A DNA stretch of 64,000 nucleotides from Nymphaea colorata (Eukaryota; Streptophyta; Magnoliopsida; Nymphaeales; Nymphaeaceae): NCBI RefSeq assembly GCF_008831285.2, contig NC_045139.1, positions 31,655,706 to 31,719,705 of the forward strand. The letters are read 5' to 3'. Below, piece by piece: positions 1 through 59,000 of this stretch; the stretch's first letter is position 1; the number at the start of each line of letters is the position of its first letter. A model generated the notes under the pieces. It was not told the origin of the DNA and ran no database searches. It was given only the letters and a program-made list of their open reading frames with translations. Position numbers and translations under genes: made by a program.

Positions 1-66
1 CAGCTTCCTTTGTCTTTGTGTTTGCAGGTTATGTAGTTAGAATCTCATGATATGTAATTGTGTTAG

Positions 67-3000
67 GTATTATATCAACTACAAGCTAATGAAAAAAAAG
101 GTCAGGCAGTATGCCCGTCAGATTCAGGATGGAGCAGAAAATCGACGTCAAGTGATGAAAGAGTTCTCCCGGATGTTAGATCACCAGGTCTGCACATCGC
201 GACTAAGTTGCATTATACTAATTTGTGTCCTTGTGGAATATGATGTTATCCTTGAATTTTGAACCTACAAGAAAATTCATGTACTGTAAGGAATCTACCG
301 GTAACCTTGTCTCCCATATGTTTTCTGGCCCAGATTGAGAAGATCGTCTTGTTTCTATTGGAACAACAAGGGATCCTTGCAAGCCGCATAGAAAAGCTAG
401 GGGAGCAGCGTGAGATTCTTCTGCAACAGCCTGCTATTGCTGAAATAGTTGAACTTCGGGAGGCATATAGAGCTGTGGGACAAGATCTTTTGAGGCTTCT
501 GTACTTTGTTGAGGTCAATGCTATTGGTCTGAGAAAGATACTGAAGAAATTTGACAAACGGTTTGGTTATAGATTTACTGATTACTATGTGACAACTCGG
601 GCAAATCATCCTTATTCTCAACTTCAGCAAGTGTTCAAGCATGTGGTAAAGTGTCCGAATTAGTTACTCAATTTTCTAAATATTACAAACAGATGGCTAA
701 TAGAAATTTTAGTAAACTTCCTTTGAACTGCAAAATAAAGGTCATATACTAAGATTCATCAGTTTAGACAATGATGGTTTGTATAGGGCATTGGAGCTGT
801 AGTGGGTGCATTATCTCGTAATCTTGCTGACCTCAAGGACCATCAGGGAAGCTATTTATCGATTTATGATCAGCCAGCTGCTGCTTTGCAGGTCTGTATT
901 TTGTGCTCTGTGGTTAATTTTCCTCACTGAATTTGGATTTTTGCTAAGGACCTTAAGTACATTATTAGATGACTCGTTAGTTTGTTATTTTCATGTTCTT
1001 TAATGTGATAATGCGTAACAGCTATTCATACCTATCTTTGATCCAATCTACAGGATCCTGTTATTGAATCCATTAAGGCAGCCGTGGACCGGCTGACACA
1101 CTCCACAAATTTTCTCAAATTCTTGGGGCAGCATGCACTTATTATTCAGGATGAGTTGCCGGCACCACCATCTGAGGAAATCATTGATGAAGAGAGATAC
1201 CATTTCATGTCATTGGTCTTGAACTTGGCAAATACATTCCTCTATATGGTTAATACCTATATTATTGTGCCGACTGCAGATGACTACTCAATGAGCCTTG
1301 GAGCTGCTCCAACTGTATGTGGTATAATAATTGGGTCAATGGCTGTTGCTCAAGTGTTCTCCTCTGTATATTTCAGTGCATGGTCAAACAGATCATACTT
1401 CAGGCCTCTTATTTTTAGCAGCATTGTTCTTCTTCTGGGCAATACATTGTATGCGTTGGCTTATGATCTTGATTCCATAAGCATACTCTTAATTGGACGC
1501 CTTTTCTGTGGGTAGGTACTTTCGATGTCCTACTCAAATGAAGGATAGCATGCAATTCTTGATTTTATGTGTTCCAAGTTTCAAGTATCCAGTGTCAATG
1601 TACCTGTTTGGGAGAAGATGTTCTCTAGCTTGAAATGTGCCTTTTTTTCCATTCCTTTTGTGGAAAGGCAGATTCAGTCAAACACATTTACTGACACGCT
1701 GAAAAACTTTTGAATGCAGAACTTTGACTTATTCTTAAATTAATTGACTTAACTGGCTCTCAGAGCTTTTAATTAACTATATTTTTTGTCTACCTGTTAT
1801 GCACTTGCAAGTCATTTTTCTTTTTTTGGCTTCATCTTGAACATGTTTGAAATTTAAATTATCAATCTGGGATTTCTTTCTGTTGTTTGGGCATGTTAGG
1901 TCTGATGCTTGTTACTAGGAAAGTTATCCATAATTGCTAACTAGTAATTGTAACTTTGGTTAAACTGCAGATTGGGTTCAGCCCGAGCTGTTAATCGGCG
2001 TTACATTAGCGACTGCGTGCCTACGAAAATACGAATGCAAGCATCAGCAGCATTTGTTAGTGCTAGTGCTCTGGGAATGGCATGTGGTCCTGCTCTTGCG
2101 GGACTGCTTCAAACAAATTTTAGGTTTTCAATGCTCACAATCAATGAAAACACTTTACCAGGGTGGGTGATGGCTCTGGCGTGGTTAATTTATCTGATTT
2201 GGTTGTGGATTTCATTCAGAGAGCCTGCTCGTGAAGCTCCACAAAACAATTCAACCAAGGAGCCTAATATTGGTACTAATCACCATCTACCTGATTCAAA
2301 AAGTTCCTCATCTGTGTTTCTCTGTGAGTTCTTTACATTTATAACCTTTGAAGTCTGTCTGCCAGTAGGTACAGAAAATATCCAATCACTGGAAAATGGA
2401 CTTGCTCAGCCCCTTCTTTCAAATGGAGATGAGAAGGTGCAGGATGAAGATGTGGATCAGGAATTTGATGGCAGTGAAGAAGCTCCAGAGGAATCTCACA
2501 GGCCCGCTACAACTATTGTGTCTGCATACAGATTACTTACTCCATCGGTGAAGGTATAGGACTTCGTCTACGTGCACTTCTGTTCTCTTGCTTGAAAGTC
2601 TTTTGCACTGTAGATTCTTCCAATTTCATTGTCTTTATTATTCTCTGACAACTATTTATATGGTCAACTTGACTTACATTTCCTATAGGTGGGAGAGGGA
2701 TTTCCCTCTGAAATTTTGGAATAAGAGCTTTAAGAATTCCCTTTGGTCTTCCCCCTGAAATTTTGAGAAAAGCATTCAGGTCCCCCTGCTTAAGTTTCTG
2801 ATTTTGCCTGCTTCTACCACACCTGTTCAGTGTTCAAGAATGTTGTGAATCTTGACTGTTTGTGCTTTGTTCTCATAAAATAGCTCCAATTCTGTATGCA
2901 CACATAGATAGTAAATTTGAACATTACGAAAGTCGTACTTGAATATGCTTTTCATTTAATCTACATGTAGTATCTTGTTTTTGCATAGGTTCTTGGTTGT

Positions 3001-3648
3001 TGGCCATCAAGTTTTTTGTTCTATTTGAGCTGTTAATTTTCTCTAACTTCTCCAGTAACACCTAAGCACTAAAAGTGCCTCTAGCTTCGTATGTGTTTTC
3101 TGTGGAATGAATTATAAAGCTGACAAGTTTACACACGGTTACATTAAAAAAGAAGCATGTGGGAGTATGTACTTGGAGCTACTATTCGCTCTCTCTCTCT
3201 TTCTTCTCTGTGTGTATATACATATGTATATTATATATATAATATACATTGATGCAATCATATTGTGTCATTCTCTTGTATATACGTCTGAAGAGGATGA
3301 TGTTCTGCGGTGTTTTTGCTTTTTGTTAATGTAACTATATTGTGTCAATCTCTTAAATTTAAATGCTTAAACCATTAGAACTAGAGTAATCTTCTTTCCT
3401 TTGCTGCAGGTGCAATTGCTGATCTATTTTATGCTAAAGTATGCAATGGAGATTGTACTGTCAGAATCAAGTGTCATTACAACATTCTACTTCAATTGGT
3501 CTACAACCAATGTGGCTATATTCCTTGCATGTCTTGGTCTCACTGTGCTGCCTGTAAATATCATAGTTGGTACCTACCTTAGCAATATGTTTGAGGAAAG
3601 GTAAAAAGTATTCTTTTCATGCTCATGCAACAATGTGTCTGTGTGTGT

Positions 3649-3681
<33 letters not shown>

Positions 3682-5530
3682 CATTGGCACACACATATTT
3701 TTGTGTGTGTAAAGTTGGACACGTGTGCACAAAATTGGATCTTCCTTGGTACTTGTCAGGCTCTTTAGTACCTGGTTTGCATCTGGTACAGCCTGCAGAA
3801 AATGGACATATAGATGCCTGAACAAGAGTCAGCCCCAGTGAGGCCTGTTGGAAATTAGGCACTTAATTTGGTTTGGCTGGTCCAGTTCTCAGGCCCCTCC
3901 CTGTAAGAGCTGGGTAGCTAGACCCTTGCCTGAGAATGGCCTGATAGACTATTGGTAATTGGGTTGTGGTAAAATTAGGTTTGGAGTGCATCTGGGCCTG
4001 CGGGGCATAGTTAAGTTAGCATGGCCATCCAATGTCCACCCCATGGTAATGTGCGGATCACAGAAAGGGATTCCTTTTTGGTTGAGCCTGGAATTATCTA
4101 ATTCGTCATGATCATGATCATCTTCTATGCTTTCAATTTTCAAACTTATTAACCTGTTGTATGTTTGTTCATTCCAATATCATTTCTTTTCTGAATATAT
4201 TATGTTTGTTCGTGCTTATATCATTTTTTCCCTGAATTTTTCCTGTTTCTAATCCCCTGTTTGAATTGAATGTTTCGCAGGCAAATTTTGCTGGCTTCAG
4301 AGATCTTTGTATTCATTGGCATCATGTTGAGCTTCCATATTATAGTCCCATATACTCTCCCACAATATGTCACATCTGCACTTATCACGTTTGTTGCTGC
4401 AGAAGTTCTGGAAGGTAATTCCTTAAAATGTGCTTCTACTGGGATACTATCAATGCTCAAATACTTGTTCAGCTTTTAGCGTTCCTAACTGTAGCTCCAA
4501 AATCCGTGTGAAAACGGTAACGCTGGAACCGTTAGAGGGCATTCGGTAACATGAATGCTGCTTCTTTGGAATGCAGTGTTCCATTTGCCCTGCTACCAAG
4601 CACCCTCTTAATGTCTGAGAACACAAATATCAGGGTGGCAAATTTTGGTTTTGCTAAACACGGAATTGCAGAGGACCACACTGATGGGCCTTTGCTTTTT
4701 TATGAATAAAAACTTGAAAAGTTTACACAACCGATTTCATTGCCTAGACAAACCTGGTCTTTACCCAGGGTTTGTGGTTTGTGAGTGGTCCCGTTTCTGT
4801 CCAGATACAGTTGAACTTGGGATCTAGACTAAAGCATCTTTGTTACCACGGACGATTTCACTGTCTAGTCTTCCCCATGTTAATGTCACGATGCTGTCTG
4901 TATTGGGTTGCAAGGAGTACATGGAACTCCTTCAATTATTTCTTCTCTATTTTCTGCCACTAAACGATGAAGCATAACCAGGATTCCAGCAGAAGCACGA
5001 GGCGGGGATAAAATAAGGCTAGCATGCCCATCCGAACCATGTGAGCCTTGTGGGAGAAGGAATTGTAATGGACGAAGTGGTTTCTTTCCTAGACAGCCAT
5101 AAAATGAAAACCAATCAGTTTCTAGAATTGTCCCTAGTGGTATTTGGACACAAAACGCAACTTTGATCATATGATATCCACAGATTTTAGATTGATCATA
5201 TCCTTACATACGATAAACGATGACTTGGTTTCTTGTCTTGATAGTCTTTAGTGTTTGAGTTTGTGATGTGTGGAACTGTCCTTATCCGCAGGTGTGAATC
5301 TGTCACTGCTCTCTCAAGTCATGTCATCGAGGCTGGCTAGGGGCACATACAACGGCGGTTTGCTATCCACCGAGGCGGGAACATTGGCTCGTGTAGTAGC
5401 AGACGCCACGATCACTTTGGCTGGTTACTTGGGTCAGAGCATGCTTCTAAACGTTACCCTCCTTCCATCGCTAGCAATATGTGTGGGCTCCTTGATTGCG
5501 ACGTTTCTGACGTACAACTCTCTCTATTGA
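67..5530 (+). CDS. SPX-MFS vacuolar phosphate transporter (PHT5/VPT type), 5' partial
   Basis: Exons read as 67-187, 334-645, 787-891, 1054-1511, 1971-2553, 3410-3600, 4281-4414 and 5292-5530; all junctions are GT-AG and keep frame. About 713 residues are visible; only the first exon (roughly 16 residues of the SPX start) lies left of the window. The SPX domain occupies about the first 180 residues ([44 protein letters not shown]); its lysine-rich helices bind inositol pyrophosphates in this family. Next comes a major facilitator domain ([37 protein letters not shown]), an acidic cytosolic loop ([17 protein letters not shown]) and a second membrane half ending TYNSLY. By family it moves phosphate into the vacuole across the tonoplast. 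One oddity is a hydrophobic insert ([14 protein letters not shown]) in the central loop. Family assignment is firm; the direction of transport is inferred from homologues. Confidence 0.95.
3640..3681. repeat. (GT)n microsatellite in an intron
   Basis: A nearly pure TG/GT run interrupted by one CTG lies in the intron between the sixth and seventh visible exons of the SPX-MFS gene. A short inverted CA stretch follows at about 3690. Confidence 0.9.
4535..4607. mobile_element. Tourist-like (PIF/Harbinger) MITE in an intron
   Basis: A 73-bp element is bounded by TTA on both sides (4532-4534 and 4608-4610), the target duplication typical of PIF/Harbinger elements. The left end reads GAGGGCATTCGGTA. 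The reverse complement of the right end reads GAGGGTGCTTGGTA: 10 of 14 positions agree and all four differences are transitions. It lies in the last-but-one gap of the SPX-MFS gene. It has no coding capacity. Confidence 0.6.
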
Positions 5531-5672
5531 TGCTCTTCCGCTTGTATCAACGTGTACATAGTAGAGCTTATCGATATCTTCGAGCGCGTTGAATTTTTGT
5601 CTGGCTCTGTCCTAAGCGGACGTCATAAAGGGTTAAATGGCGGACCTCACGTGCTTGCATCTTCATTTCTGC

Positions 5673-15700: not shown

Positions 15701-17695
15701 TTGTAGAAGTTTCTATTCAGTACTGTAATTTGTATATCTAATCTAGATCTGACTCCGAATCAAATTAAATGACATCCAATTAGGCAAGTATGATTAGTGG
15801 TGAAAATGGAAATAATTTTGCCAATTATCTCATCCAATCGAGTGAGTTTGCAGGCAGATGTGGATGAAGAGGTGGATCCATTCTTAAAATTGGCTCATAA
15901 AATGGGTTTCGATATGGGGGACTGCTCGTCTACACTGTGTTTGATTGCCGCAAAAAATTGTTTGAGTGCAAAAAATTTTCAGCCAAATCTCCTTGCATTC
16001 GACTAAAAATCTGGAAAAAAATGCATATTATGTGTCGAACTTGGAGAACATGTCTAGGGTTTTTCTTAAAGCAGGTATTGCAAGTCACAGACGTGCTGCT
16101 TCTCTGACTGGTTATCCAGGCAATCAAACACACCCTTAAGGAAGTTTGGTGTGGGAACATGCTTAATCTATAAACGAGTCAAAATTTGTGACTATATGTC
16201 ACGCCAACCATAGCCTACGAAATTTTATTGAGAGTCAATTCCGATCAATAAGAACAGCTAATACATTCAATCAATGAACCTTTCTAATTTAGGTGTGATG
16301 CGATAGGGACCCCAAGCAACGCTCCAACTGCTTGCAATGAAGTAGAGGCTTTCTTGGTCGGATCACGTCTATCAAATTGTTTTGATCATCCGATCAAGTC
16401 AAGCAGCAAACGCAGGTAAATTAGAACTAGAGGGTGGTGCATGTTCGGCCCCTAACTGGGCTCGTGCTTGAGTTTTTCACATTTTTTAAAAAAGAATGGT
16501 TATTTTTGTCATTTCAAAAAAAAAAAGCCTTTTTTTTCTGACTTTATAAGAGACGGGTTTTTTAAAAGGTTGAAGCCTCTCTTTCCTCAAGCCTCATGGT
16601 TGCTTGGGTAAGATAGAGTCAGTGTACCTTCAACTTGCAGCAATTTTTATGGTAAGAGACTATGATCCAACTACTAGATACAACAATCTATTAGATAGTC
16701 TCCCTAGGCACCGAGATGCAATCATATCACATCTTAACGCGGTGTGGTGTGTATATTTCCAGGCTTTCAAAGTTTTGGCTTGTATATTCATAATGATAGT
16801 ATGAGCGCTTTGGGGCGTCCCCAAGCTCTTTACTTACATAAGGCACACGAGAGAATGTGCGTTCCATGTTATATAGCTAACATAGTATGGTATTTTCCAC
16901 CTTTTACCAAATGGGCATTTTGGTAATTCTATAGGAAAATTTTTTCGATGTTCCACTTTTGCCCTTATAGGATGAGGGTTGTCTATTTAACTAACAAGAA
17001 GGGCATTTTGGTTGTTTCCTGCCCATGGCGTAGGGCCCTTTCTTAGGAGCCATAACATGTACCCTACTTTCCCTTTTTCACACATGAAGGGCATTTTGAT
17101 CATTTCCAAACACTATGACCTCCTCCAGACCAGAACTTGAGCTTACCGTGTTCACTCTCTACAATTTTTTGGACCAATCCCAAAGTGGGTGAGATCAGTA
17201 TGCAAAATACAAACCCTGTTCATCATTCATGTGATATCTTAGAGCTCACTTCATGGGGGAATTGCCAGTGTTCTTACTAATGATGGGCTCATGTTCAATC
17301 ATGAACACTGTGACCTATCAGTTGCAAATTAAGAAGACATGGCGACTATCTCCAATGATCAAAGGCATGAAATCCTTCAAATGTCACCAATCTTTCTCTA
17401 GAACAACTTCCAACTTACTTGTAGTAGAAGAAACTGACTTCTTTACCTCATTCTTTTAGCGTGACCATGAAGAGTAGTTCATGGTTATTTGGTGGAAAGT
17501 CATGAATAAAAATGAAGACAAAGGTTTAGTTCACTAGTCAGTAACTTGCAGAATATAATAATAAGTTCCATTTTGTTCAGATGAGAAGTCACTAGCCACT
17601 CTGCTTTTCGAAACTCTCTTTTCTTACGTCCCAAAATCCCATCTACATAGTTACCTGATAAGTGCCATTTGAAAATCTTTAAATCAAACCCCTTG

Positions 17696-18031
17696 TTTCT
17701 CACGAAACTAAAAGCTGATATTTGTGATTGTGCTTCATGTTTTGTTAACTCTGCTACGTATACCACTCTATATGAATCGTTTCTCACAGAACTAAGAGCT
17801 GATATTTGTGACTGTAATCGATGTTTTGCTAACTCTGCTGCTGATACCACTCTATGTGAGTCATTTCTCACAAAATTAAGAGCTGATATTTGCGACTGTG
17901 CTTGATGTCTTGTTAACTCTGCTGCTGATACCACTCTATATGAATCGTTTCTCAAAAAACTAAGAGCTGATATTTGCGACTGTGCTTGATGCTTTGTTAA
18001 CTCTGCTGCTGATATCACTATATATGACTAC
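17696..18031. repeat. Four tandem 84-bp repeats
   Basis: Four consecutive 84-bp copies start at 17696, 17780, 17864 and 17948, each beginning TTTCTCA and containing AGCTGATATTTG and GATACCACT (or close variants). The period is divisible by three, and the minus strand stays open across the array (17500-18018), giving four 28-residue units with the core QSQISAL. No start context, domain or splice signals support a gene, so I annotate it as a minisatellite. Confidence 0.9.
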
Positions 18032-23398: not shown

Positions 23399-26203
23399 AT
23401 GGCTTTCTTGGGGAGATTGATTCTTTCTGCGCTTATCGGGATCCTCTGCTTCCATGGCTTCTGCCTCTCTGAGATGCGTAATGATCTCTGCGTTTCGTTG
23501 TCTTCTCGATATTTCTTGCGCACTAGTTTCTCCATGCTCATTGGCCAGCTGAGTCATTTCTCTGTGTCTCTTTTAGTTTACAGTTGACAATTTGGATTAG
23601 GCAACCTCATTTCCATGGATTAGACTAACCAGTTTCTGAAAAAGGTCGTCATTTTGTCATATGTTTACAACTGAAGCGGCGCCAAGAAACATATCTTGCT
23701 CTGCAAACTAGATTTTCTGCTTTATATCATCAAAAGATGTCCTTGTTTGAGATTTAGCCAACAATTACAGGTACCAATTAGTTCTGCATCTTAATCAAAG
23801 GATCATGCAACTAAAGGTTTCTCTAATCCAGCAGAAACTAGAGTCTGAGGCTGAACAGACCATTTAACAAATTGAAGTGTACAGAAAGCTTTCTTTCAGT
23901 TTGTGTGAATCTTCCCTTTTCTTCTAACATTTTCCTTGAAAAATCGCAGCTCCCAATTATTCCTTTATGCAAGAGGCGATATCTGCACCTGCAATCTCCC
24001 ACTATGACTACATAATCGTGGGTGGAGGGACAGCAGGGTGCCCACTAGCAGCGACCCTTTCTCAGAGGTTCAAGGTGCTACTGATAGAAAGAGGAGGCTC
24101 CCCATATGGCAACGCCAACATAACAAATCTCGGGTCTTTTGGGGACACCCTCTCCGACCTGTCCCCCGACTCGCCTTCCCAGAGGTTCATCTCAGAAGAT
24201 GGTGTCATAAACGCCAGAGCCAGAGTCCTGGGAGGCGGCAGCTGCCTGAACGCCGGGTTCTACACCAGGGCCGGCCGGGAATACGTCGAGCAAGTCGGCT
24301 GGGACGGGGCCTTGGTGAACCAATCTTATGAGTGGGTAGAGAAGATTGTGGCCTTCGAGCCCCCCATGCTTCAATGGCAGTCTGCTGTAAGAGATGCCCT
24401 TCTGGAAGTTGGGGTGTTGCCTTACAATGGCTTCACCTTCGATCACCTGTATGGCACCAAAGTGGGAGGCACCATCTTCGACAAGGACGGCCGCCGGCAC
24501 ACCGCTGCCAACTTGCTCGAGTATGCCAACCCCAGCGGCCTCACCGTTCTGCTGCATGCTACTGTTTCCCGCATACTGTTCAGAACTAAAGGTAGTAACA
24601 AAGAAGAATTGCAACTGCCTCATTTTCTCTCCTCCTTGTTCTGTGATCGAGAGAAGAAGATGGCAGATCACTCCCATTCTTTCAGTTTTTCCATATAATG
24701 AACCAGGAAAACGAACTAAAAATTGAAGATAGGGATGCCATCTTTCCTAAACAGAGGCGCCATCTTTCCGAAACAAAGGCAGAATTAGCAGAGCCATAGT
24801 ATTCCTTTCAAAATTTTGAAATGTAGAGGTTTTCTAAGAGCTTTTAAGACAAGCTTTATTTTTAAAATTTCAGGAGAAGAACAAGAACATTTATCTTGGG
24901 GAATTTACTTATATTTCTGCAAAATGTTCCGTTTGTAGGATGTGGGAGTGGAAAGAAAAATGGATGGAAATTTAGAGTTTTTCCATATTTAAAACTATAA
25001 AGGTCAACACACAAAAAAAATCATACGTTTTGGACATATGGAATCATTTTTATAAGTAAAAAAAATTATGGCCGTTGGTTATCAAACTTCTACAAAAATC
25101 TCACTTTCTGACTTAAAATAATGTCATTTTTATATAAATCTGTGATGTTTTGGTGGTAGATATAACTTTCGTGCGCAGATTTTACAAGAAATAATGAGTA
25201 AAAAGTATTAAAAATAGTCACGGCGGTCATTCCTTCTTTGGTTTTTAGGGAAGGGAAGGCCCGTAGCTCACGGAGTGGTGTTTAGGGACTCAAAGGGGAC
25301 CCTGCACCGGGCGTATCTCAATGATGGGACCCAAAATGAGATCATCTTGTCCGCAGGAGCCATTGGCAGCCCACAGCTGCTAATGCTCAGTGGCATCGGT
25401 CGAGCACAGAGTCTGAAGTCCCAGGGGATCGGAGTGGTGGTTGATCAGCCGCTGGTGGGTCAAGGAATGGCCGACAACCCCATGAACGCCATCTACATCC
25501 CGTCGCCGTTGCCGGTGGAGGTTTCCCTGATTCAGGTGGTTGGCATCACTCACTTCGGAAGCTACATTGAAGCTGCTAGTGGCGCCAATTTTGCTTACCC
25601 TTCTGCCTCCTCGGGCACACCTAGAAGGGACTTTGGCATGTTCTCTCCTAAGGTATGTGTGTGTATGTGCGGGCGCGCATTCGCTTTCTATACTGAATTC
25701 TTTAATATTATAAAATATCGCATGGATAGTAAATCGCTTTCTATACTGAATTCTTTAAGATTATAAAACATCGAATGGATACAACTACTATCTGCTTGAT
25801 TGATGTCAACTTATGCCCATTTGTTGAAGGCGACCTTATATGAGATTGCTGTTTTCTTGTTTTTTTCTTAGCCATCATCATGTTGGCTGTTGGCTGGAAC
25901 AACTGTGGTTAAATGGCTGGATAACTCTGAACAGGCAGAATCACCTGTCAATGATGATTAGATAATTTTTTATGAAGAAAAGTTAACTGATAGTGGGCAA
26001 GACGCATACGATCTTGGCCAACATTATTCAATTCTTTCTCCCTTTTATATATTAGGAAATAGGAATGGAAAGATCTGGTTCTGCCCTCCCCACCTCTTTC
26101 TCTTTTCCCTTCTTCTCTCATTTCTCTCTCTCTCTTTCGTCATCCACCTCCTCTCTGGCATCCACTCCCCCTCTCTTCCCCAGTTTTCCCTTCTTCTCTC
26201 ATT

Positions 26204-26234
<31 letters not shown>

Positions 26235-27209
26235 TTCACCTTCCACCTCCTCTCTCCCATCCGCTTCCCCTCTCTTCCTCAGCAATCAGGTGATTCAGGT
26301 CTTCTCATCATTTTAATGAAAAGGAAATGTAATTGGGACTTCCCTCTCTCTTTAATTTCTCCATCAAGCTCCCTCTCTCAATGAACTACTAACTCTGCAT
26401 GCAGCAAAAACACTTGTAACAAATTCTCTTGATCCTGGCAGGCAGCAGGAAATACATTTATGACAAATTAACATTGATTCTTGCAGACAGGTCAGTTGGG
26501 CATAGTCCCACCCAAGGAAAGAACGCCAGAAGCCATAGCCAAGGCCGTGGAAGCCATGGAGAGCTTGCAGGACTCCGACTTCAGGGGCGGCTTCATTCTC
26601 GAGAAGATCCTGGGCCCTCTATCCACAGGACATCTTGAGCTGAAAGACAGAAACCCTGACAGCAACCCAAGAGTCACTTTCAACTACTTCAAGGAGCCTG
26701 AGGATCTGAAAAGATGCGTGGATGGATTGAACACTATAACCAGAATGGTAGATTCCAAAGCCTTTCAGAAGTTCAGGTATCCATACATCACAGTGGGGCA
26801 GATGATAAACATGACCGTCAACTTCCCTGTCAACCTCATTCCCAAGCAGGCCAACGACTCCTCCTCCATGGAGCAGTACTGTAAGGACACTGTCATGACC
26901 ATCTGGCACTACCATGGAGGATGCCAAGTGGGTAGGGTTGTCGACCATGACTACAAAGTCCTTGGAGTTGATGCTCTTAGAGTCATCGATGGCTCAACTT
27001 TCAATGCTTCACCTGGTACAAATCCGCAGGCCACAGTTATGATGCTTGGAAGGTAAAATCTCTCTCTCTCTCTATTAACATACATAACATACATATATGT
27101 ATGCATGCATATAATAAACCATTCATTAACATGTAGCTTGTTCTTACAATACAGATACATGGGGCTGAAGATTGAGAGAGAAAGGCTTGGTATGCATGGG
27201 AGCAACTAG
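23399..27209 (+). CDS. HOTHEAD-like GMC oxidoreductase (FAD)
   Basis: Five exons, 23399-23477, 23950-24591, 25249-25652, 26487-27052 and 27155-27209, give 581 residues, close to Arabidopsis HOTHEAD. The first exon encodes a signal peptide (MAFLGRLILSALIGILCFHG). The FAD-binding motif is IIVGGGTAGCP at about residues 48-57. Further GMC signatures are ARARVLGGGSCLNAGF, EIILSAGAIGSPQLLMLSGI and, at the C-terminus, WHYHGGC (about 515-521) and DGSTFNASPGTNPQATVMM with the active-site His/Asn region. The family includes HOTHEAD, linked to oxidation of omega-hydroxy fatty acids in cutin, and mandelonitrile lyases. Sequence is closest to the HOTHEAD side, but the substrate is inferred. All introns are GT-AG and no lesion is seen. 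The start ATG is the first in frame with the signal peptide. Confidence 0.95.
25681..25786. repeat. 53-bp tandem duplication in an intron
   Basis: Two consecutive copies begin TCGCTTTCTATACTGAATTC at 25681 and 25734 and differ at a few positions. They lie in the third intron of the HOTHEAD-like gene. Confidence 0.85.
26093..26281. repeat. Pyrimidine-rich tandem duplication (about 95 bp, two copies)
   Basis: Two copies share TTTTCCCTTCTTCTCTCATT, a CT run and CCACCTCCTCTCT, each closing with CTCTTCC(C/T)CAG. They lie in the third intron of the HOTHEAD-like gene. Both copies end in a possible splice acceptor, but the used acceptor is at 26486. Confidence 0.75.
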
Positions 27210-29633: not shown

Positions 29634-29641
29634 GGATATGC
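29634..29641 (+). promoter_or_regulatory. P1BS-type site (GNATATNC), distal, upstream of MIR399
   Basis: GGATATGC matches GNATATNC, the binding site of PHR1-type MYB factors, about 400 bases upstream of the MIR399 TATA box. The motif is expected by chance about once per kilobase, so the context carries the weight. Confidence 0.45.
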
Positions 29642-29943
29642 TGGTGCGGGTTCCTATCGAGGCGATTCTACATGTTGTCGCACACGTCCATTCATGCCTT
29701 TGCATCTCTTCCCCATCTCCATTCTCACCTTTTCTTCTTCTACCCATGTCCTGAGAGTAAACACGCAGGAGACTGAGGCCCTTAAAGTAGACAAAATGAA
29801 CAGAAGAGATTGACGGCCGGCTACATCGCCAAAAGAAAGAAAGTGATCGTACGCATTAATGGTCAAGAGAATAAGCACTTTGGTGGCGACCCCTTCGACT
29901 TGAAAACAGCGACTCGGCTCTGCTAAAGATCAAAGGAAGATAA

Positions 29944-29951
29944 GGATATCC
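29944..29951 (+). promoter_or_regulatory. P1BS-type site (GNATATNC), proximal, upstream of MIR399
   Basis: GGATATCC is a fully palindromic match to the PHR1 site, about 80 bases upstream of the TATA box and 140 bases upstream of the hairpin. This is where PHR1 sites commonly lie in phosphate-starvation-induced promoters. Confidence 0.65.
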
Positions 29952-30032
29952 ATGGTATAACCCCCCAGCATATGCCATTATCCTCTCTCTTTCTCTCTCT
30001 CTCTCTCTACAAAGGTTGAAGGTGAAGAGGGT

Positions 30033-30040
30033 TTATATAC
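30033..30040 (+). promoter_or_regulatory. TATA box of MIR399
   Basis: TTATATAC lies about 50 bases before the hairpin, so transcription would start at about 30065. A CT-rich tract (29985-30008) precedes it. Confidence 0.6.
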
Positions 30041-30083
30041 CAACCAGTGGGTGGGTTCTCTTTGTGTAGCAGCTCGGTTGTGT

Positions 30084-30214
30084 GAGCAAACTAATTGCAG
30101 GGCTTCTCTCTGTTGGCAGATAACTGGAAGAGTATGTCCATGATCCATACTATATATGTAGAATACTTCAAAGTCATCTGCCAAAGGAGAGTTGCCCTGC
30201 AACTTGTTTTGCTC
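30084..30214 (+). ncRNA. MIR399: MIR399 primary hairpin (phosphate-starvation microRNA)
   Basis: The mature miR399 sequence is on the 3' arm at 30179-30199. It begins TGCCAAAGGAG and ends TTGCCCTG, matching the conserved 21-nt family sequence (miR399b/c type) as I know it. The 5' arm (30098-30118; CAGGGCTTCTC then TGTTGGCA) pairs with it at 17 of 21 positions plus one G-U. The stem continues outward (GAGCAAAC with GTTTTGCTC) and inward (GAAGAGTAT with AATACTTC), with a small apical stem AGTATG/CATACT. Fold, arm position and star sequence agree with plant MIR399 genes. By family, miR399 is induced when phosphate is low, travels from shoot to root and cleaves PHO2 (UBC24) mRNA, which de-represses phosphate uptake. 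A TATA box and two GNATATNC sites upstream fit PHR1 control. It is the only copy I see in the window. Confidence 0.95.
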
Positions 30215-32875
30215 AAATGGGTACATGATCACCATCACCAAGGTATGTGAAGCTACTAATTCAGCGGCTTAGGGCAATGCGTTCGATTCAAACCTCCGCA
30301 GATTGAGATCTAATAGGCATATAAGCCAGCTATCTCCTCTATGTCAAGTTTCCTGATCCACAACCGAAAGGTGATCTTTGCTATTGTTGGTTTCATTAAC
30401 TTTATGAACGTTTATTCTTCTGCCCAGAATCATCTGGACTCTTTTTGAATGTGGAGCAATTTCTGACATCTTAAGCATATTGTCTGCAAATTAAGTCCCG
30501 TTTCAATTTATTTCTAGTACATCCTTGGTGTAGATTTTCATGTTTGATGTTGGTACCAACAGGATTCTCATAATGGGGCGAACCTAGCTGTATTGCTGTA
30601 ACCTATGCCTCAATTCTCACAAGGATGGTTACTTGTGGAAACAGTCTTGAGTTGGGGAGGTGGATCTAAGGAGTTTTAAGCTGCTCTCAAGAAGGTTAGC
30701 CTTCAGTTTACCTTTCACTCATTTCAAAAATTCAGGAAAGAAAAAAAAAATGAATATTTAGGATCACTTATATCGCAGTTTTACTCCCAAAGAATAATAA
30801 AACATAAGAATAAAGGAAGCAGAACAATAAAACAGTAAGAATAAAAGAAGCCGAAGCATGTTTTTTATAACCGTGTTTATGTTCTGCTTCAATCCAACGC
30901 ACGCCTCACGCAATGGAACAATGCTGCAAATGGCATTGATTCTTCTGCCTTTAAGGGTTCTTGAGTCCTGACTTAGAGCGCCCTGTGTTTGGCTTGGACC
31001 CTTGTTGTTATAGTTTCGACAACCTCTCTCTCTCTCTCTCTCTCTTCCTCATCTTCCTTTCTTCTTCTTCGCTTCAACTGTTCTTTCCTTTGGTTTGTTT
31101 TGTTTCTGGCCAAGTTTCTGCAAAGAAGTCAGGAACTGTGCCCAGTTGGAGAATGAACAATTTCGGCCCCCATGGAAGCCATCTACGTATAAGAAAGCTA
31201 CACCTCCTGTTAATGGTACTAATTTCATATTTGGGGTGCTTAGTTGAAATAAATGGAAAGACCAGCTTTATCTTCATTCCCGCAGCTGTCAATGATGTCT
31301 CCGTTACCAAGGCCCCTGTAACTACCTAGGGATGTAAACACTAAGCAGTTCAAAGTCCGGTCAGATATAGCCTTTATAAAACTCGCTTAACCAGATTCTG
31401 TGTAAAACTGGATGCAGATTAAGACTTTTCAGACCCCATTTTATACTGAATCCTGATCCAACTAGCATAAGGTCTAAAGTTTACACATAATCGGGTTCCA
31501 CTTATAATTTTTGGATACAGATGCCATATGATAGCCAATGCCAGGACGCTTGTCGTTCTTGTCAAAAGCACAATTAAAATGAAACAGAATACAGAAACGA
31601 TAGGACAGCTGAGGTGGTGAAAAGAGTGTTTTGGAAAATACCCATTCTTTACAGACAATGATATTCAGGAAAACAGTGCAAATCAGCAGGTAAAAATGGT
31701 AGTGAATTTAGACAAAGAAAGCAGGTTTCTAACCATGGTACTAAGCTCTTCTTGTATACATGGAAAAGACAAGGATGAAACCTATATTGGCTCACAGAAA
31801 ACTGTTTACATGCAATCAAAGAATTCGATGTGTGTTATCTTAAAAAAGAACTGGCAAACTTTTCATATGAGCCAGCTTGTTCTCATGTCATGGCTACTTT
31901 ATATGCATGGTCATCGAACTTTAACGGCAATTGGAAAAGGTGACCACCTTTAGCGAGCGATGGGAATTTGACATGTCGGATAACGTCGATCTGGTTATAT
32001 CGAATCGATGGTTGTGATGACTGCCAATTCAAAAAGGCAAATGCACGTATTCCTTCTTTTAAGAGAGTTGCTCTGCACACATCTACTACTGAGTCATCCA
32101 ATTGGAATAATCTAACACTTTGAGGCAAACACACTTTAGTTTCCGTGTTTGGCAAAGATCATATTCTACATATAAAATCATTTTTTAAGAAAGATGAACA
32201 GCAAATTGTTCTTTGACTTTAAAATAAATAAATTCACAGATAGCAACGAGTCTCATGCTAATAGCTCACAAGTCTTAACGTAGGCAGTTCTTTCATGAGG
32301 GATGATAAGCATGGCAGTTTTTCGTAGATTACCAAGAGTCTCTGCAGAAGCGGCATTTGAATTGTGGGACTTCAACACGGCCAGTTTGTGTGATGCCTAT
32401 CACAACGTCGTCTGTAGAAATTTATGAAAATGCCTCTTTCTCCAAGTACAAAGGTGGTTTCGGTACAACCAGAACATCCTTTTATGAGTTTTTCATTATT
32501 TGTCATCTCTCAGAACATATACGTTGTTCCCAAGAAACAGTATCATTTCAAATGGAGGAAGCTGCAATTCGCACCAAACTAGGCACCAACACCATGCCGG
32601 ATATGGAATTGTACTAATGTGCCAGTTCAAGTATTGGGTAAAAATCCAAAGGCACCTGTCATAAGGAGAAAAGGGAATCACCGCAGTAGACAGCCTCGTT
32701 CGCATCTGCAGATGTGCTACAATCAACAAAAATGAGGAGCTAATGACCATAGCCTCCCGCACAGAGAGGGGATCAGGTGACACCATTTCATGCTGTACAA
32801 CTAGGTTTTCACCTGCCAAAACACCCTCTTCTACACTTTAAAAGAAAAAATCTGGACAAATAAATAAGAGAAAAA
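30215..32875. other. Spacer between MIR399 and the Der GTPase gene
   Basis: The first part may be the rest of the pri-miR399 transcript. A 122-codon open frame at 30961-31329 has a CT-rich beginning and no known domain, and several shorter frames (31883-32155, 32357-32617) are equally unassigned. The right end should contain the 3' UTR of the minus-strand GTPase gene. Confidence 0.5.
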
Positions 32876-53000: not shown

Positions 53001-56000
53001 AGAATTTTGATTTTGTTATCAACCCATGCTGGTTATTGGTAGCTGTAGGCCCTTGAGAGGCCCTGGTCAACCTGGTTGTGATTTGAAAAATAATTCAGAA
53101 ATTTAACTTAGGATTTTGAACGATAACTTAAGAAATTTCTTATTGGTATTAGCAACTTCAATCTTTGCTTTACAAATGTTTTATACTAGCCGAGATAGAT
53201 TTATGAGTTTTAGGCTTTTAGCTAATAGCTTGTTTGAAGTTTTGAACAGTATGGATTGACAATAGAACCTCGTGAGGGAATGACTGGTTTATCTAACTTA
53301 TTCTGATGCTTATGAATATAATTTTCTCTAGTGGAAATGTATATGGAAATTGGAATATGTACAATGAATGAATTTAGTTTTGTAGAGTCATCCCTTTGAA
53401 ATATAATCACACTTTTCTGTTCTATCTTTTGTTGTTGGTGAAGCTTTCCTTGCATGTACATTTTTTTTTAACTTGATATACGTTTTATATTGTTATTTGT
53501 TTAGGCATACTATGTTGCTTCTTCCTGTGTAGGTTGTGGATGGGAAGCTTTCACAGACTTGCTACCTTATGGCAGTAGACTCTTGCTATAAAAGATTTTG
53601 CAGCAAGTATGATAATTGATAGGATCTATTGGACGTTTCATTTCTTAGTTTCTCGCCTCATTTTCGAACTATGATCATCTTGTTGCTTATAATTTTTTTT
53701 CAGATACGAGAAATTTGAAGGGAAACAGTTCTCTGTTCTTGATGCAGATTACGTAGCCTTCCATTCTCCCTACAACAAGGTATTTTGTTGTTAACTTATA
53801 TGATATTTCTTTGTAGCTTGTTCATTTTTTATCTGTTAAGTTTCCGAGCTTGTATAAATTAGTGGTAAAATATTGATGCAGCTTGTGCAGAAAAGCTTTG
53901 CCCGACTTGTTTTCAATGACTACTTGCGGAATGCCAGGTTCGAACCATGTGTACATAAGCCTTTTATTATGCATCCAGTTTTCATTACCTATGGGTTGAA
54001 ATGGATGATATAGTCTATGTGGTTATATATGCTTAATTAGTAGGTGGTGTTGCGGCCTGCCTTTGTAGACATTTTTTCCTGCCCTACTGCATATATTTAT
54101 GCAGTTTGCATTGCTCGGTAATTTTTTGCTTTCCTGTAGGTCATAACTACTCTACTGTGATACATGAGAGTTGTTAAAATATAAATCCTTCACCAGCACG
54201 TTGAAGAGGAGTCTCTTAGGATTCCACCTCCTTGTAGAATGTGTTAAGATATTTAATGTCCTTGTAACATGTGAAGAGTCTCCTAGGATTCTATGTTGTA
54301 GTTAATATCCTTGTTATATGTGAAGTCTCTTAGGTTTCTATGATGTAATTAATGTCCTTGGAGCTTGTGAAATCTCCTAGGATTCTACGATTGGAGACTC
54401 TTAGAATTCTGGAAATGGGATTATAAATAGAGGCCGTGCAAACCATTTTGGCTACGGCTTCTTCTCCTCAGTTTCTTCTTGTTTTCATTCTCTCTTTCCC
54501 TCTCTCTCTCTCTCCCTCTCTCTCTCTCTATCTCTATCTTCCTGCGTGAGTGCTGTTTTCTGGTTACAGATATTGGTGCTAGATTTCTATCATGGTATCA
54601 GAGCGCCAGGTTACGTTATCTCTACCAAACGAAATGCCCAAACAGGTCTGATCTGGTTAGAACTCTTTTCTCATCTTGTCTCTATCCTGAATTTACTTTT
54701 TTCTTGCGCAATTCTTGTTCCTTTTTCTTCTTGCTTACCCAAGGACACATCTTGTTATATCGTGTCTTCTTTCCCTCTCATCTTCTACCTATATACCATT
54801 CCTTTCTGCTGTCATGGAAAACCTTTCGCATTCTAGCATGTCCTCAAGTTTTCTTCCTCACCTTATTACCGAAAAACTCAACCATGAGAATTATCTGATC
54901 TGGAAAAGGCAAATCATGCCTTTCATAAGAAGTCATGGCCTCTTTGGACATCTCGATGGTTCAACAAAGGCTCCACCAATATCCGTCTTACAGGAAATAA
55001 AAAATGAGGCAGGAGAAGTTATTGCTGTTCATGAAGACAACAATCCTGAACATGCTATGTGGATGAGACGTGATCAAAGTCTGGTTGCGTATATTTTGTC
55101 CACTTTATCTCAACAAGTGTTACTTTCAGTTTCTGATGATTGTACTGCAGAAGAATTATGGGAAACCCTTGCTGATACCTTTTCCCAAATATCAGAAGCT
55201 TGAATTATGTACTTAAAGAAAGAATTTCAGAATTTGAGCAAAGGTTCAACGTCTATCATGGATTATTTGGGGCGTATTAAGGCCGTCGCAGACCAACTTA
55301 CTGCCTCAGGGAATAACATTTCTGATAAGGAAAAGGTGCAGCAAACCTTGAATGGACTTGGGCATGATTATCATGCTTTTATTACAGCTCTTGAGGTCCT
55401 TCCTGTTCTGCCTTCCTTCAACGAACTACAAGGTAAACTTCTCCAACATGAAATGAATATGAAAAGAGTCATTGAAAGGACTGATCAAGGGAACTCCCAA
55501 AATGTATTGGCTATGAATGTAAAGTTTGGTAAGAGCCATGGGAACTCCAACCATGGTGGTCGTGGCATTCTACCAACACCACATAACCAAGGTATGTCTC
55601 CTTTGGACACTTCAAGAAAAATACCAATTTGTTTTCAGTGCAACAAGAAAGGACACATGAAGGCACAATGTTGGTTTAATCCTCAAAATAAAAACAAAGG
55701 GGTAAGCCATGATTATAAACAAGGAGGACAAAGTTCTAAATCCACCGCTGAAGATATGCAACAGCTATTGATGACCGCATTCTCAAAGATGACTATAAAG
55801 CAAAATGAGCAAGGAGAATGGTTCTTGGATTCAGGTGCAGCTACCCATGTGACAGGAAATGCAGGTAAATTGACTAACTTATCCCCTCATTACGGTAGAA
55901 GTTGCATTATAACAGGTGATGGAAAATCTCATCCTATTACACATATTGGAAATGCACATATTCCATTGTCATCCTCGTCTTTATCACTGTCTAATGTTGT

Positions 56001-59000
56001 TCTTGCTCCCAATATCAAAAAGAACATCATATCCATTTCTAAACTCATTGATGATACAAGCTCTTCTGTTGAATTCACACCTTCTTCTGTCTATGTCAAG
56101 GACCTCCAAACGAAGAAAATGTTCGCTAGAGGGGAGCGTCAAGGGAATATGTACGTCCTCAAGGAATGTCTACCCAAGGATTCATCCACTTTTGATATAG
56201 GATTGAAGACATTTTCTCTTTCTCATAATGCGTCATCAGTGCCAAGTTCTTGCCATTTTCAATCAAAAGTAAGGGGCCCTAACCAATTTTTGGAGTCTGA
56301 TTTGTGGCATAGTCGGCTAGGACACTGTGGTCGACATTTCATTGAAAAACTTGTCACAGATAGTCTCATTCCAAGATCAAGTTTACCTCTTACTTCAAGT
56401 GTCAAAAAATGTTAAGTTGTGGACTTTGTAAGAGTCATGTTTTACCTTTCCATAATATAAATCAAAGGGCTTCCAAACCTTTTGAAACTATTTTTTCTGA
56501 TGTATGGGGGCCAGCCCCTATTGATTCCATGTCTGGGTCAAGATATTATGTCTTATTCATTGACTCTTACTCACGTTTCACCTGGATTTACTTCATGAAA
56601 CACAAATCAGAAGTACCTCACATATTTCGAAACTTCTATGCCATGATTCAAACTAAATTTTCATCCAATGTGGTGCATTTTCAATGTGATGGAGGGGGAG
56701 AATATTCCTCGCTTGATTTTATTGAATTTCTACGTGAAAAAGGGATAACTAGACAAATTTCCTGCCCTTACACACCACAACAAAATGGTGTAGTTGAGCG
56801 GAAACATCGACATATAGTTGAAAGCGCCATGAGCATGATGCATGATACTAATGTGCCCATTTCCTTGTGGACTGAAGCCTTCCATACTGCTGTATACATA
56901 ATAAATTGTTTGCCTATGACACTCTTGATGTCTAAATCGCCATATTTTACACTCTTAGGCAAACAACCTGATTACAAGAACTTGAAGGTTTTTGGTTGTG
57001 TATGCTATGTTCACGTTGATACTGCCTTGAGGAACAAGTTTCAAGACAAAGCTATTCAATGTAGATTCGTTGGATATGCTGATGAATATAAAGGTTTTCG
57101 ATGCTATGATCCAACAACTAAACGTATCAAAACTTCAAGAAATGTCATTTTTGATGAACATAGTTTTGATAATACAAATGAAATGCCTATGACCATTGAA
57201 TCTTATGATCCCTGGACCAGTACACAGTTATTTAATGCAGATCCTGTTATAGAAAATGATGTGCCTCAAAGTGAAGATTCAGAGAGAGCAATACAACCGT
57301 CGGATATGGCTCAAAGTGAAAATCAAGAAGATCCAACACAGTCATCAAGTCATCATGAAAACAATAATGAAGAACAGAGCAACGATGCACATCGGTATTC
57401 GGGTCTTATCTACAGTCGACGACTAAGGGACAGAGATGCTCACAGTGAAGAAGACAACATGCCCCACCTTAGAAGATCCCAACGCATTCGTCATCCCATT
57501 CACAGGTGGGTTAGCTATGATTCTTTATCACTTGATTTTCAGTTATTCATGGCAAAAGTTGGCAAGGAGGAAGAACCTACTTCATTTGATCAAGCATCAA
57601 AATCACATCATTGGAGAAAGGCTATGAAAGAAGAAATGGATGCCTTGCATGAATGTGGAACATGGGAGATCGTTCCGAGGCCACACGAAAAGAACGTAGT
57701 GGGCTCCAAATGGGTATACAAAATTAAATACAAACCTGACGGCAGCATAGAAAGACACAAAGCAAGGTTAGTAGCAAAAGGGTTTACACAACAATATGGA
57801 GAAGATTATGATGAGACATTCAGTCCTGTGATCAAAATGGGAACAATTCGCGTGATTATATCATTGGCAGTTGAATATGGATGGAGACTACATCAAATGG
57901 ACGTGAAGAATGCTTTTCTTCATGGTGATTTAAGGGAGGAAGTATATATGGAACAACCTCCAGGATACACGAAAGGAGACTCTCATGCATGGGTTTGCAA
58001 ACTAAGAAAATCTATTTATGGACTTAAGAATGTGGTTTTCGGAGATGTCCTCTAGATCACTCTCTTTTCATTTATCGAAAGGAAAACATATTTACTTTAC
58101 TTCTTATATATGTTGATGATATTGTTATCACAGGCAATTCAGAAAAACACATAGAAGAAGCTAAAGTTTTGATGATGCAAAACTTCAAAATGAAAGAGCT
58201 TGGTGATTTACGATTCTTTCTTGGAGTGGAGATTGATAGGGACAATAATCGCCTCACATTGACACAACAGAAATACACGTTGGATCTGCTGAAAAAGTCA
58301 GGTATGTCTGATTGTAAGCCTGTTGGAACTCCTAGTGTTCTAAATCAAAGACTAAGTGCTCAAGATGGGGAGTTATATGAAGATCCTACGCAATATCGAA
58401 GTATTGTTGGGGCACTTCAATATCTTACATTTACTAGACCAGATATTATATATGCTGTGAATCAAGTATCTCAATTTATGCATGCACCTAAAGATACTCA
58501 CATGGATGCTGTCAAAAGAATATTAAGATATCTTAAAGGGACAGCAGGAGATGGCTTAGTTTATGGTAAGAGTGAAAATATAACTACTGGACATCAACTT
58601 ATGACATTCACAGATGCAGATTGGGCTGGAGATCCCGATCAAAGAAAGTCCATTTCTGGTTTTTGTATTTTCATTGGACGTAATCTTGTGTTTTGGAGTT
58701 GTCGAAAGCAAAAGGCAGTAGCAAGATCCAGCACTGAAGCTGAATACAGATGCATGGCTGCAGGTACTGCTGAAGTTACATGGGTTAGACATTTGCTAGA
58801 AGACATTGGAGAAAAGATTAAAACATCAATGTTAATGTGCGATAATCAAAGCGCTATTAACATTGCCTTTAATCCCGTACAACATGGTCGAACAAAGCAC
58901 ATTGAGATTGATCAACACTTTGTTAGACAAAAGGTGGAAGACAAGGAGATTCAGCCTATTTATGTTCGTACAGATGAACAAGTTGCAGACTTATTTACAA

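Follow-up and report, generated by a model that had tools for sequence, protein, structure and literature searches.

A MIR399 gene of the water lily Nymphaea colorata, its SPX-MFS neighbourhood and its predicted place in the miR399-PHO2 pathway

Overview

The 64,000-nucleotide stretch of Nymphaea colorata DNA analysed here (the window; contig C2, positions 31655706-31719705) very probably carries a MIR399 gene that is intact and autonomous, would act in the miR399-PHO2 pathway as proposed below, and corresponds to Arabidopsis MIR399B in its mature sequence and neighbourhood. The gene is a real and ordinary member of a known family. An earlier note on this DNA had read 30084-30214 as an intact MIR399 locus, and this reading is supported by the sequence, the fold, the Rfam model, the promoter, a duplicate on contig C9, a PHO2-like target and IPS1-like mimics. 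It is indeed, as that note held, a non-coding gene that ORF calling misses; the default Rfam scan misses the same gene, and a real regulatory gene is thereby lost to annotation. Expression of the miR399 and its exact 21-nt ends are predicted from the sequence. The points of interest are the age of the neighbourhood and the preference of the mimics, both put forward as hypotheses. The order Nymphaeales is an early-diverging angiosperm lineage; the genome scanned comprises 407.8 Mb in 783 contigs. A Nymphaea colorata marker primer assigned to chromosome 12, Ny-12.1 F (PMC9601493), has a single exact match in it, on C12; the reverse primer follows downstream and delimits a 172-base product whose TC and TA runs resemble those of the marker.

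Table 1. Features of the MIR399 locus and of the linked SPX-MFS gene, in window coordinates
Feature	Position	Strand	Evidence or remark
SPX-MFS gene	56..5531	+	exons assigned from seven blocks that are conserved in C9
Additional distal P1BS-like motif GGATATGC	29634..29641	+	
P1BS motif GGATATCC	29944..29951	+	24 bases before the 29968 motif; aligned C9 bases GGGTATCC, motif not kept
P1BS motif GCATATGC, PHR1-type	29968..29975	+	211 bases before mature start; GCATATGC also in C9
TATA box TTTATATACC	30034..30039	+	C9 has TTTATAAACA at the corresponding position
MIR399 stem-loop, pre-miRNA and lower stem	30084..30214	+	fold; Rfam RF00445 over 30088-30209
miR399*, 5' arm	30100..30120	+	pairs with the mature strand when folded; 20/21 identical in C9
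Terminal loop and upper stem	30121..30178	+	fold; 15/58 identical in C9
Mature miR399, 3' arm, UGCCAAAGGAGAGUUGCCCUG	30179..30199	+	exact sequence; 20/21 identical in C9

Mature sequence and hairpin

The 3' arm of the hairpin carries the exact miR399 sequence UGCCAAAGGAGAGUUGCCCUG (TGCCAAAGGAGAGTTGCCCTG in DNA letters), and the conserved 21-nt miR399 that had been placed at 30179-30199 was right to the base. It fits what we take to be the 3'-arm mature sequence of the MIR399 family, UGCCAAAGGAGARUUGCCC.., and is presumably identical to ath-miR399b/c; the same 21-mer is already printed in the literature (exact-string match). By arithmetic, the chance of an exact 21-mer in 64 kb on both strands is ~3e-8. 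The 19-base core of miR399 matches at up to 3 mismatches at this sole place on both strands of the window, with 0 mismatches observed, and a match within that limit arose in 7 of 100 shuffles of the window.

The folding energy of the hairpin 30084-30214 is -60.4 kcal/mol, whereas its shuffles average -29.6 (sd 3.7); this gives a z of -8.3 with none of 500 shuffles as low, and a single one of the 1966 131-base tiles on both strands of the window is as stable, elsewhere and on the minus strand. The longer fold of 30060-30240, for which a stable hairpin had been predicted, has a z of -5.8 (0 of 200 shuffles as low). Plant miRNAs are recognised by a hairpin with few and symmetric mismatches in the duplex and by a star with a 2-nt 3' overhang. 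At this locus 17 of the 21 duplex positions form Watson-Crick pairs and one a G-U pair, precisely the count given earlier, while three are unpaired, with as many unpaired bases on one arm as on the other. Allowing for 2-nt 3' overhangs, the star occupies 30100-30120. The stem extends past the duplex on both sides, as claimed: an upper stem lies within 30121-30178, and a lower stem of ~15-16 nt ends at an internal loop in the fold of 30060-30240. By the rule known for such processing, this is the geometry of base-to-loop cutting.

The fold is moderately backed by an alignment of nine paralogous hairpins, which are related rows, with the stem of the window imposed on them (the copy at C13:8389297 was entered as L013:1500-1611). 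Paired cells make up 79.3% of 299 (shuffle mean 73.5%), the covariation score is 0.234 (mean 0.146) and the cells changed on both sides number 24 (mean 12.2), with none of 500 shuffles as high in any of the three; slid versions of the stem pair in 31-52% of the cells. Two other measures show no excess over the shuffles: 59 of 500 reach the observed 10 pairs that vary on both sides, and 288 of 500 reach the observed 23 further pair types. In this alignment the lower stem of the C13 copies pairs poorly.

MIR399-like loci of the genome

The Rfam model RF00445 (MIR399) matches the locus over its full length, 30088-30209, with 52.7 bits and E 1.5e-11. A scan of the whole window at gathering scores returned no match, because 52.7 bits lie 4.3 below the gathering score of 57; matches under the threshold were read on 29900-30400. 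The gathering score is a listing cut-off and not a biological criterion, so that the locus cannot be called Rfam-listed but can still be called a MIR399 gene. On the reverse strand the score is 44.1 bits, as expected of a hairpin. Matches to mir-3146, MIR2593 and mir-55 at the locus fall far short of their cut-offs and lie on this hairpin too, and were set aside as hairpin resemblance, together with the weaker ones to snoZ247 and bxd_5.

Across the 407.8-Mb genome, RF00445 gave 17 matches at at least nine places (the window, C9:22414056 and seven on C13:8364474-8389401), a lower bound with 45 of 22311 candidates scored. Three of the nine exceed the gathering score, and six fall below it, namely the window and five of the other eight; all nine hairpins were folded. 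The seven of the C13 cluster lie inside 25 kb, three on the minus and four on the plus strand. In one of them (L013, C13:8389297-8389401) the mature sequence is changed to UGUCAAAGGAGAAUUGCCCGG at miRNA position 3, and a G to A change in the star matches it, so that the pair is kept by a compensated change. Its form pairs ~2.7 kcal/mol worse with the PHO2 sites and mimics described below than that of C13:8384890, from which it differs only at position 3.

Promoter

The P1BS motif, GNATATNC, marks promoters of the phosphate-starvation type. By motif presence, the motifs at 29944 and 29968 place the window gene in this class, and from the usual TATA spacing transcription would start near 30065. 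GNATATNC occurs 25 times in the whole window against 13.3 expected; because the motif is so common there, its presence alone says little and the argument is one of position. All nine MIR399-like loci found have it at -201 to -265 of the mature start, which does not amount to nine independent draws because the loci are related, and a 65-base stretch would hold ~0.025 motifs at the window's own rate (arithmetic). Motifs paired at 24 bases from start to start are found here and also in two copies of the C13 cluster (L009 and L016), where GCATATGC stands first.

The C9 duplicate and rival readings

A comparison of 70 kb of C9 with the window gave 17 blastn pieces, all in the same order and on the same strand: seven of them fall in the SPX-MFS gene, two on the promoter and hairpin of MIR399, and eight further on. 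Collinearity of this kind is typical of segments that arose by segmental or whole-genome duplication. Next to the identities given in Table 1, the two copies agree at 24/31 positions of the lower stem, 33/41 of the P1BS region, 13/18 of the TATA region and 34 of 86 bases downstream. The mature strand, the star, one P1BS and the TATA box were thus kept while the loop and the downstream flank diverged, which indicates selection after the duplication. This pattern also speaks against the reading that the copy in the window, though structurally intact, is silent and a relic beginning to decay, with the C13 cluster and C9 supplying all miR399. The eight other loci would allow for such a relic, and one of the two paired P1BS was not kept in C9, so that promoter turnover would be continuing; however, the mature sequence of the window is the canonical one, presumably that of ath-miR399b/c, whereas that of C9 has one change, and we consider silence unlikely.

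Still less likely is a small peptide as the product, encoded on the minus strand (85 aa), on the plus strand (38 aa) or as a miRNA-encoded peptide, with the hairpin being secondary. Open frames do exist. The sole ATG frame of at least 20 aa that covers the whole hairpin has 85 aa on the minus strand (29978-30235), and two more frames overlap it in part, one of 38 aa on the plus strand (30134-30250) and one of 28 aa on the minus strand (30091-30177). However, none of the frames over the hairpin is common to the C9 duplicate, which has other ones, one of them of 112 aa, and the first plus-strand ATG past the presumed start (~30065) is at 30134, inside the loop. The earlier description of the covering frame as a shadow agrees with the lack of a counterpart of the 85-aa frame in C9. 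An inverted repeat or MITE-like element that resembles miR399 by chance is already contradicted, and its probability is negligible. The locus is an inverted repeat, and Rfam scores both of its strands; but the 21-mer is exact, the score is higher on the expected strand, the position in the collinear duplicated block is equal, and the places found in 408 Mb number nine (as a lower bound, from the 45 of 22311 candidates scored). An intact, autonomous MIR399 gene hence remains by far the preferred reading.

The SPX-MFS neighbourhood

The SPX-MFS gene at the start of the window, whose first exons probably lie upstream of it, is by name presumably PHT5/VPT-like, of the vacuolar phosphate transporter type. 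One exon matches Pfam SPX over the cut-off (E 8.7e-8), and another MFS_1 at E 3.6e-8, with 33.2 bits against a cut-off of 33.4. A 157-aa exon compared with the genome has two matches, the window and C9. MIR399 lies downstream of the SPX-MFS gene by ~24.5 kb in the window, with other genes between, and by ~11 kb in C9. Both SPX-MFS genes found therefore have a MIR399 gene nearby, and these linkages count as one observation because both stem from one duplication.

Arabidopsis may provide a second case, in AT1G63005 and AT1G63010: consecutive gene numbers denote neighbours by the numbering convention, by which the two would be adjacent, and chance may also have produced this among several MIR399 and SPX-MFS genes. 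AT1G63005 is miR399b (PMC7909446) and AT1G63010 is an SPX-MFS gene (PMC6162444). No title or abstract opening in a literature search describes the SPX-MFS/MIR399 linkage, which may still be in print. The neighbourhood may be as old as the flowering plants, and may be functional or merely old. If ancestral, it would be a long-lived neighbourhood that joins the microRNA of the miR399-PHO2 pathway with a target gene, of the miR827 type, from a second phosphate pathway. It would also allow single MIR399 genes to be followed as orthologues, for which their sequences are almost too short.

For miR827, no site was found inside the window. MiR827-like sites lie upstream of both SPX-MFS genes, at C2:31654301-31654320 (~1.4 kb upstream of the window start) and at C9:22396170-22396189, with 3 mismatches each; the next best has 6. 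A MIR827-like hairpin is present at C8:5444008-5444085, where the candidate pair folds, and MIR827 candidates on C4 and C14 were rejected as having no clear hairpin fold. Other candidate places for MIR827 are on C10, C12 and C386.

Further along the window, a GMC oxidoreductase gene (23940-27053) resembles hydroxynitrile (mandelonitrile) lyases and, more closely, the GMC oxidoreductase chain 8s2y; it has no match in the compared 70 kb of C9. A Ty1/copia-like LTR element occupies 54253-59448. The same repeat arrays stand at its ends (54253-54539 and 59162-59448), 4909 bases apart, and enclose an RVT_2 match, so that the insertion may be recent. At 17695-18027, inside an open minus-strand frame of 175 codons (17503-18027), an 84-base unit is repeated in tandem four times (87% matches).

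PHO2-like target and mimics

A MIR399 gene is expected to find its target in the same genome. At C1:38060000-38069999, frames encode a UQ_con domain and SH3 domains of the UBE2O type, in a gene that we take to be PHO2/UBC24-like. Upstream of these frames are two sites, at 3027-3051 and 3108-3132 of locus L018, that agree with the complement of the 19-base core of miR399 when any base is allowed at position 13, and they are complementary to miRNA positions 1-12. Judging from the sequence, these sites would be in the 5' UTR and cleavage would take place there, opposite miRNA positions 10/11. The C1 loci L001 and L002 were rejected as a tandem MIR399 pair, as they are the antisense target sites upstream of the PHO2-like gene.

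The IPS1 core occurs genome-wide at up to 3 mismatches in three places: C4:24134404 (1 mismatch), C12:17341010 (3) and C2:3314481 (3). P1BS motifs stand 353-444 bases upstream of the C4 and C12 sites; the C2 site, with no P1BS in its 3-kb locus, was set aside as a likely chance match. With the C4 mimic, all 21 nt of the window miR399 are paired and a 3-nt bulge falls between miRNA positions 10 and 11. Full pairing with a 3-nt bulge at this point is the canonical mimic design.

The copies differ at position 13, which is G in the window and in C9 and A in all seven C13 copies, one of which has C at 14. Pairing with the C4 mimic is computed at -33.7 kcal/mol for the window form, -30.7 for that of C9 and -23.6 to -27.7 for the five distinct C13 forms; with the C12 mimic the values are -30.3, -27.3 and -20.7 to -24.7. 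The A13 forms thus pair with both mimics 5.6-10.1 kcal/mol worse than the window form and 2.6-7.1 worse than the C9 form. At the two PHO2 sites the energies are -36.8/-37.2 (window), -33.8/-34.2 (C9) and -30.8 to -36.8/-33.3 to -40.7 (C13 forms), the A13 forms being as good as the window form or better in five of the ten form-site combinations and 1.6-6.0 worse in the other five. As a yardstick, 3000 random pieces of 26 bases were drawn from the window; the best two (-32.2 and -30.1) fall on the star arm of the hairpin itself and the next reaches -23.9. By computed pairing, both mimics favour the G13 type that is linked to SPX-MFS, the margin of C9 over the best C13 form being narrow (~3 kcal/mol); the PHO2 sites do not clearly favour it.

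A wider interpretation, which we regard as possible but doubtful, is that flowering plants have two old MIR399 lineages. One would lie near SPX-MFS/PHT5 and carry G13, with the IPS1-type mimic tuned to it, and the other would be a tandem A13 cluster that pairs worse with the mimics. The linkage would then mark a phosphate module that has persisted from the common ancestor of water lilies and Arabidopsis, and the mimic could restrain the two pools to different degrees. The predicted split in mimic sensitivity is testable.

Proposed mechanism

Under phosphate starvation, a PHR1-type factor would bind the P1BS motifs at 29944 and 29968, as their sequence and position suggest, and transcription by RNA polymerase II would begin near 30065, downstream of the TATA box (30034). 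The transcript is predicted by folding to form the hairpin 30084-30214, and from its geometry Dicer-like 1 would cut ~15-16 nt above the base of the stem to release the 21-nt duplex 30100-30120/30179-30199. The 3'-arm strand would guide cleavage or repression of the PHO2/UBC24-like mRNA through the two sites, for which the pairing is computed and cleavage is presumed. An IPS1-type mimic RNA, of which candidate sequences are present, may buffer the miR399. The window gene would act as one of two copies in the duplicated collinear SPX-MFS segments, apart from the C13 cluster of seven hairpins.

Comparison with known systems

Measured against Rfam RF00445, the locus is a full-length match (E 1.5e-11) and yet stays 4.3 bits below the gathering score. 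Arabidopsis MIR399B (AT1G63005) presumably shares the mature sequence (that of ath-miR399b/c), and its probable SPX-MFS neighbour, AT1G63010, matches the arrangement found here. The distance from SPX-MFS to MIR399 is ~24.5 kb (window) and ~11 kb (C9) in the water lily; Arabidopsis is likened to it by gene numbers. In grapevine, Vvi-MIR399b and c stand singly on different chromosomes and have one mature sequence in common, besides a group of five loci on one chromosome (PMC10931670); the text of that paper has no words on synteny, collinearity, tandem arrangement or duplication. The water lily likewise has two single loci and a cluster, here of seven, but unlike those described for grapevine its single loci differ by one mature base.
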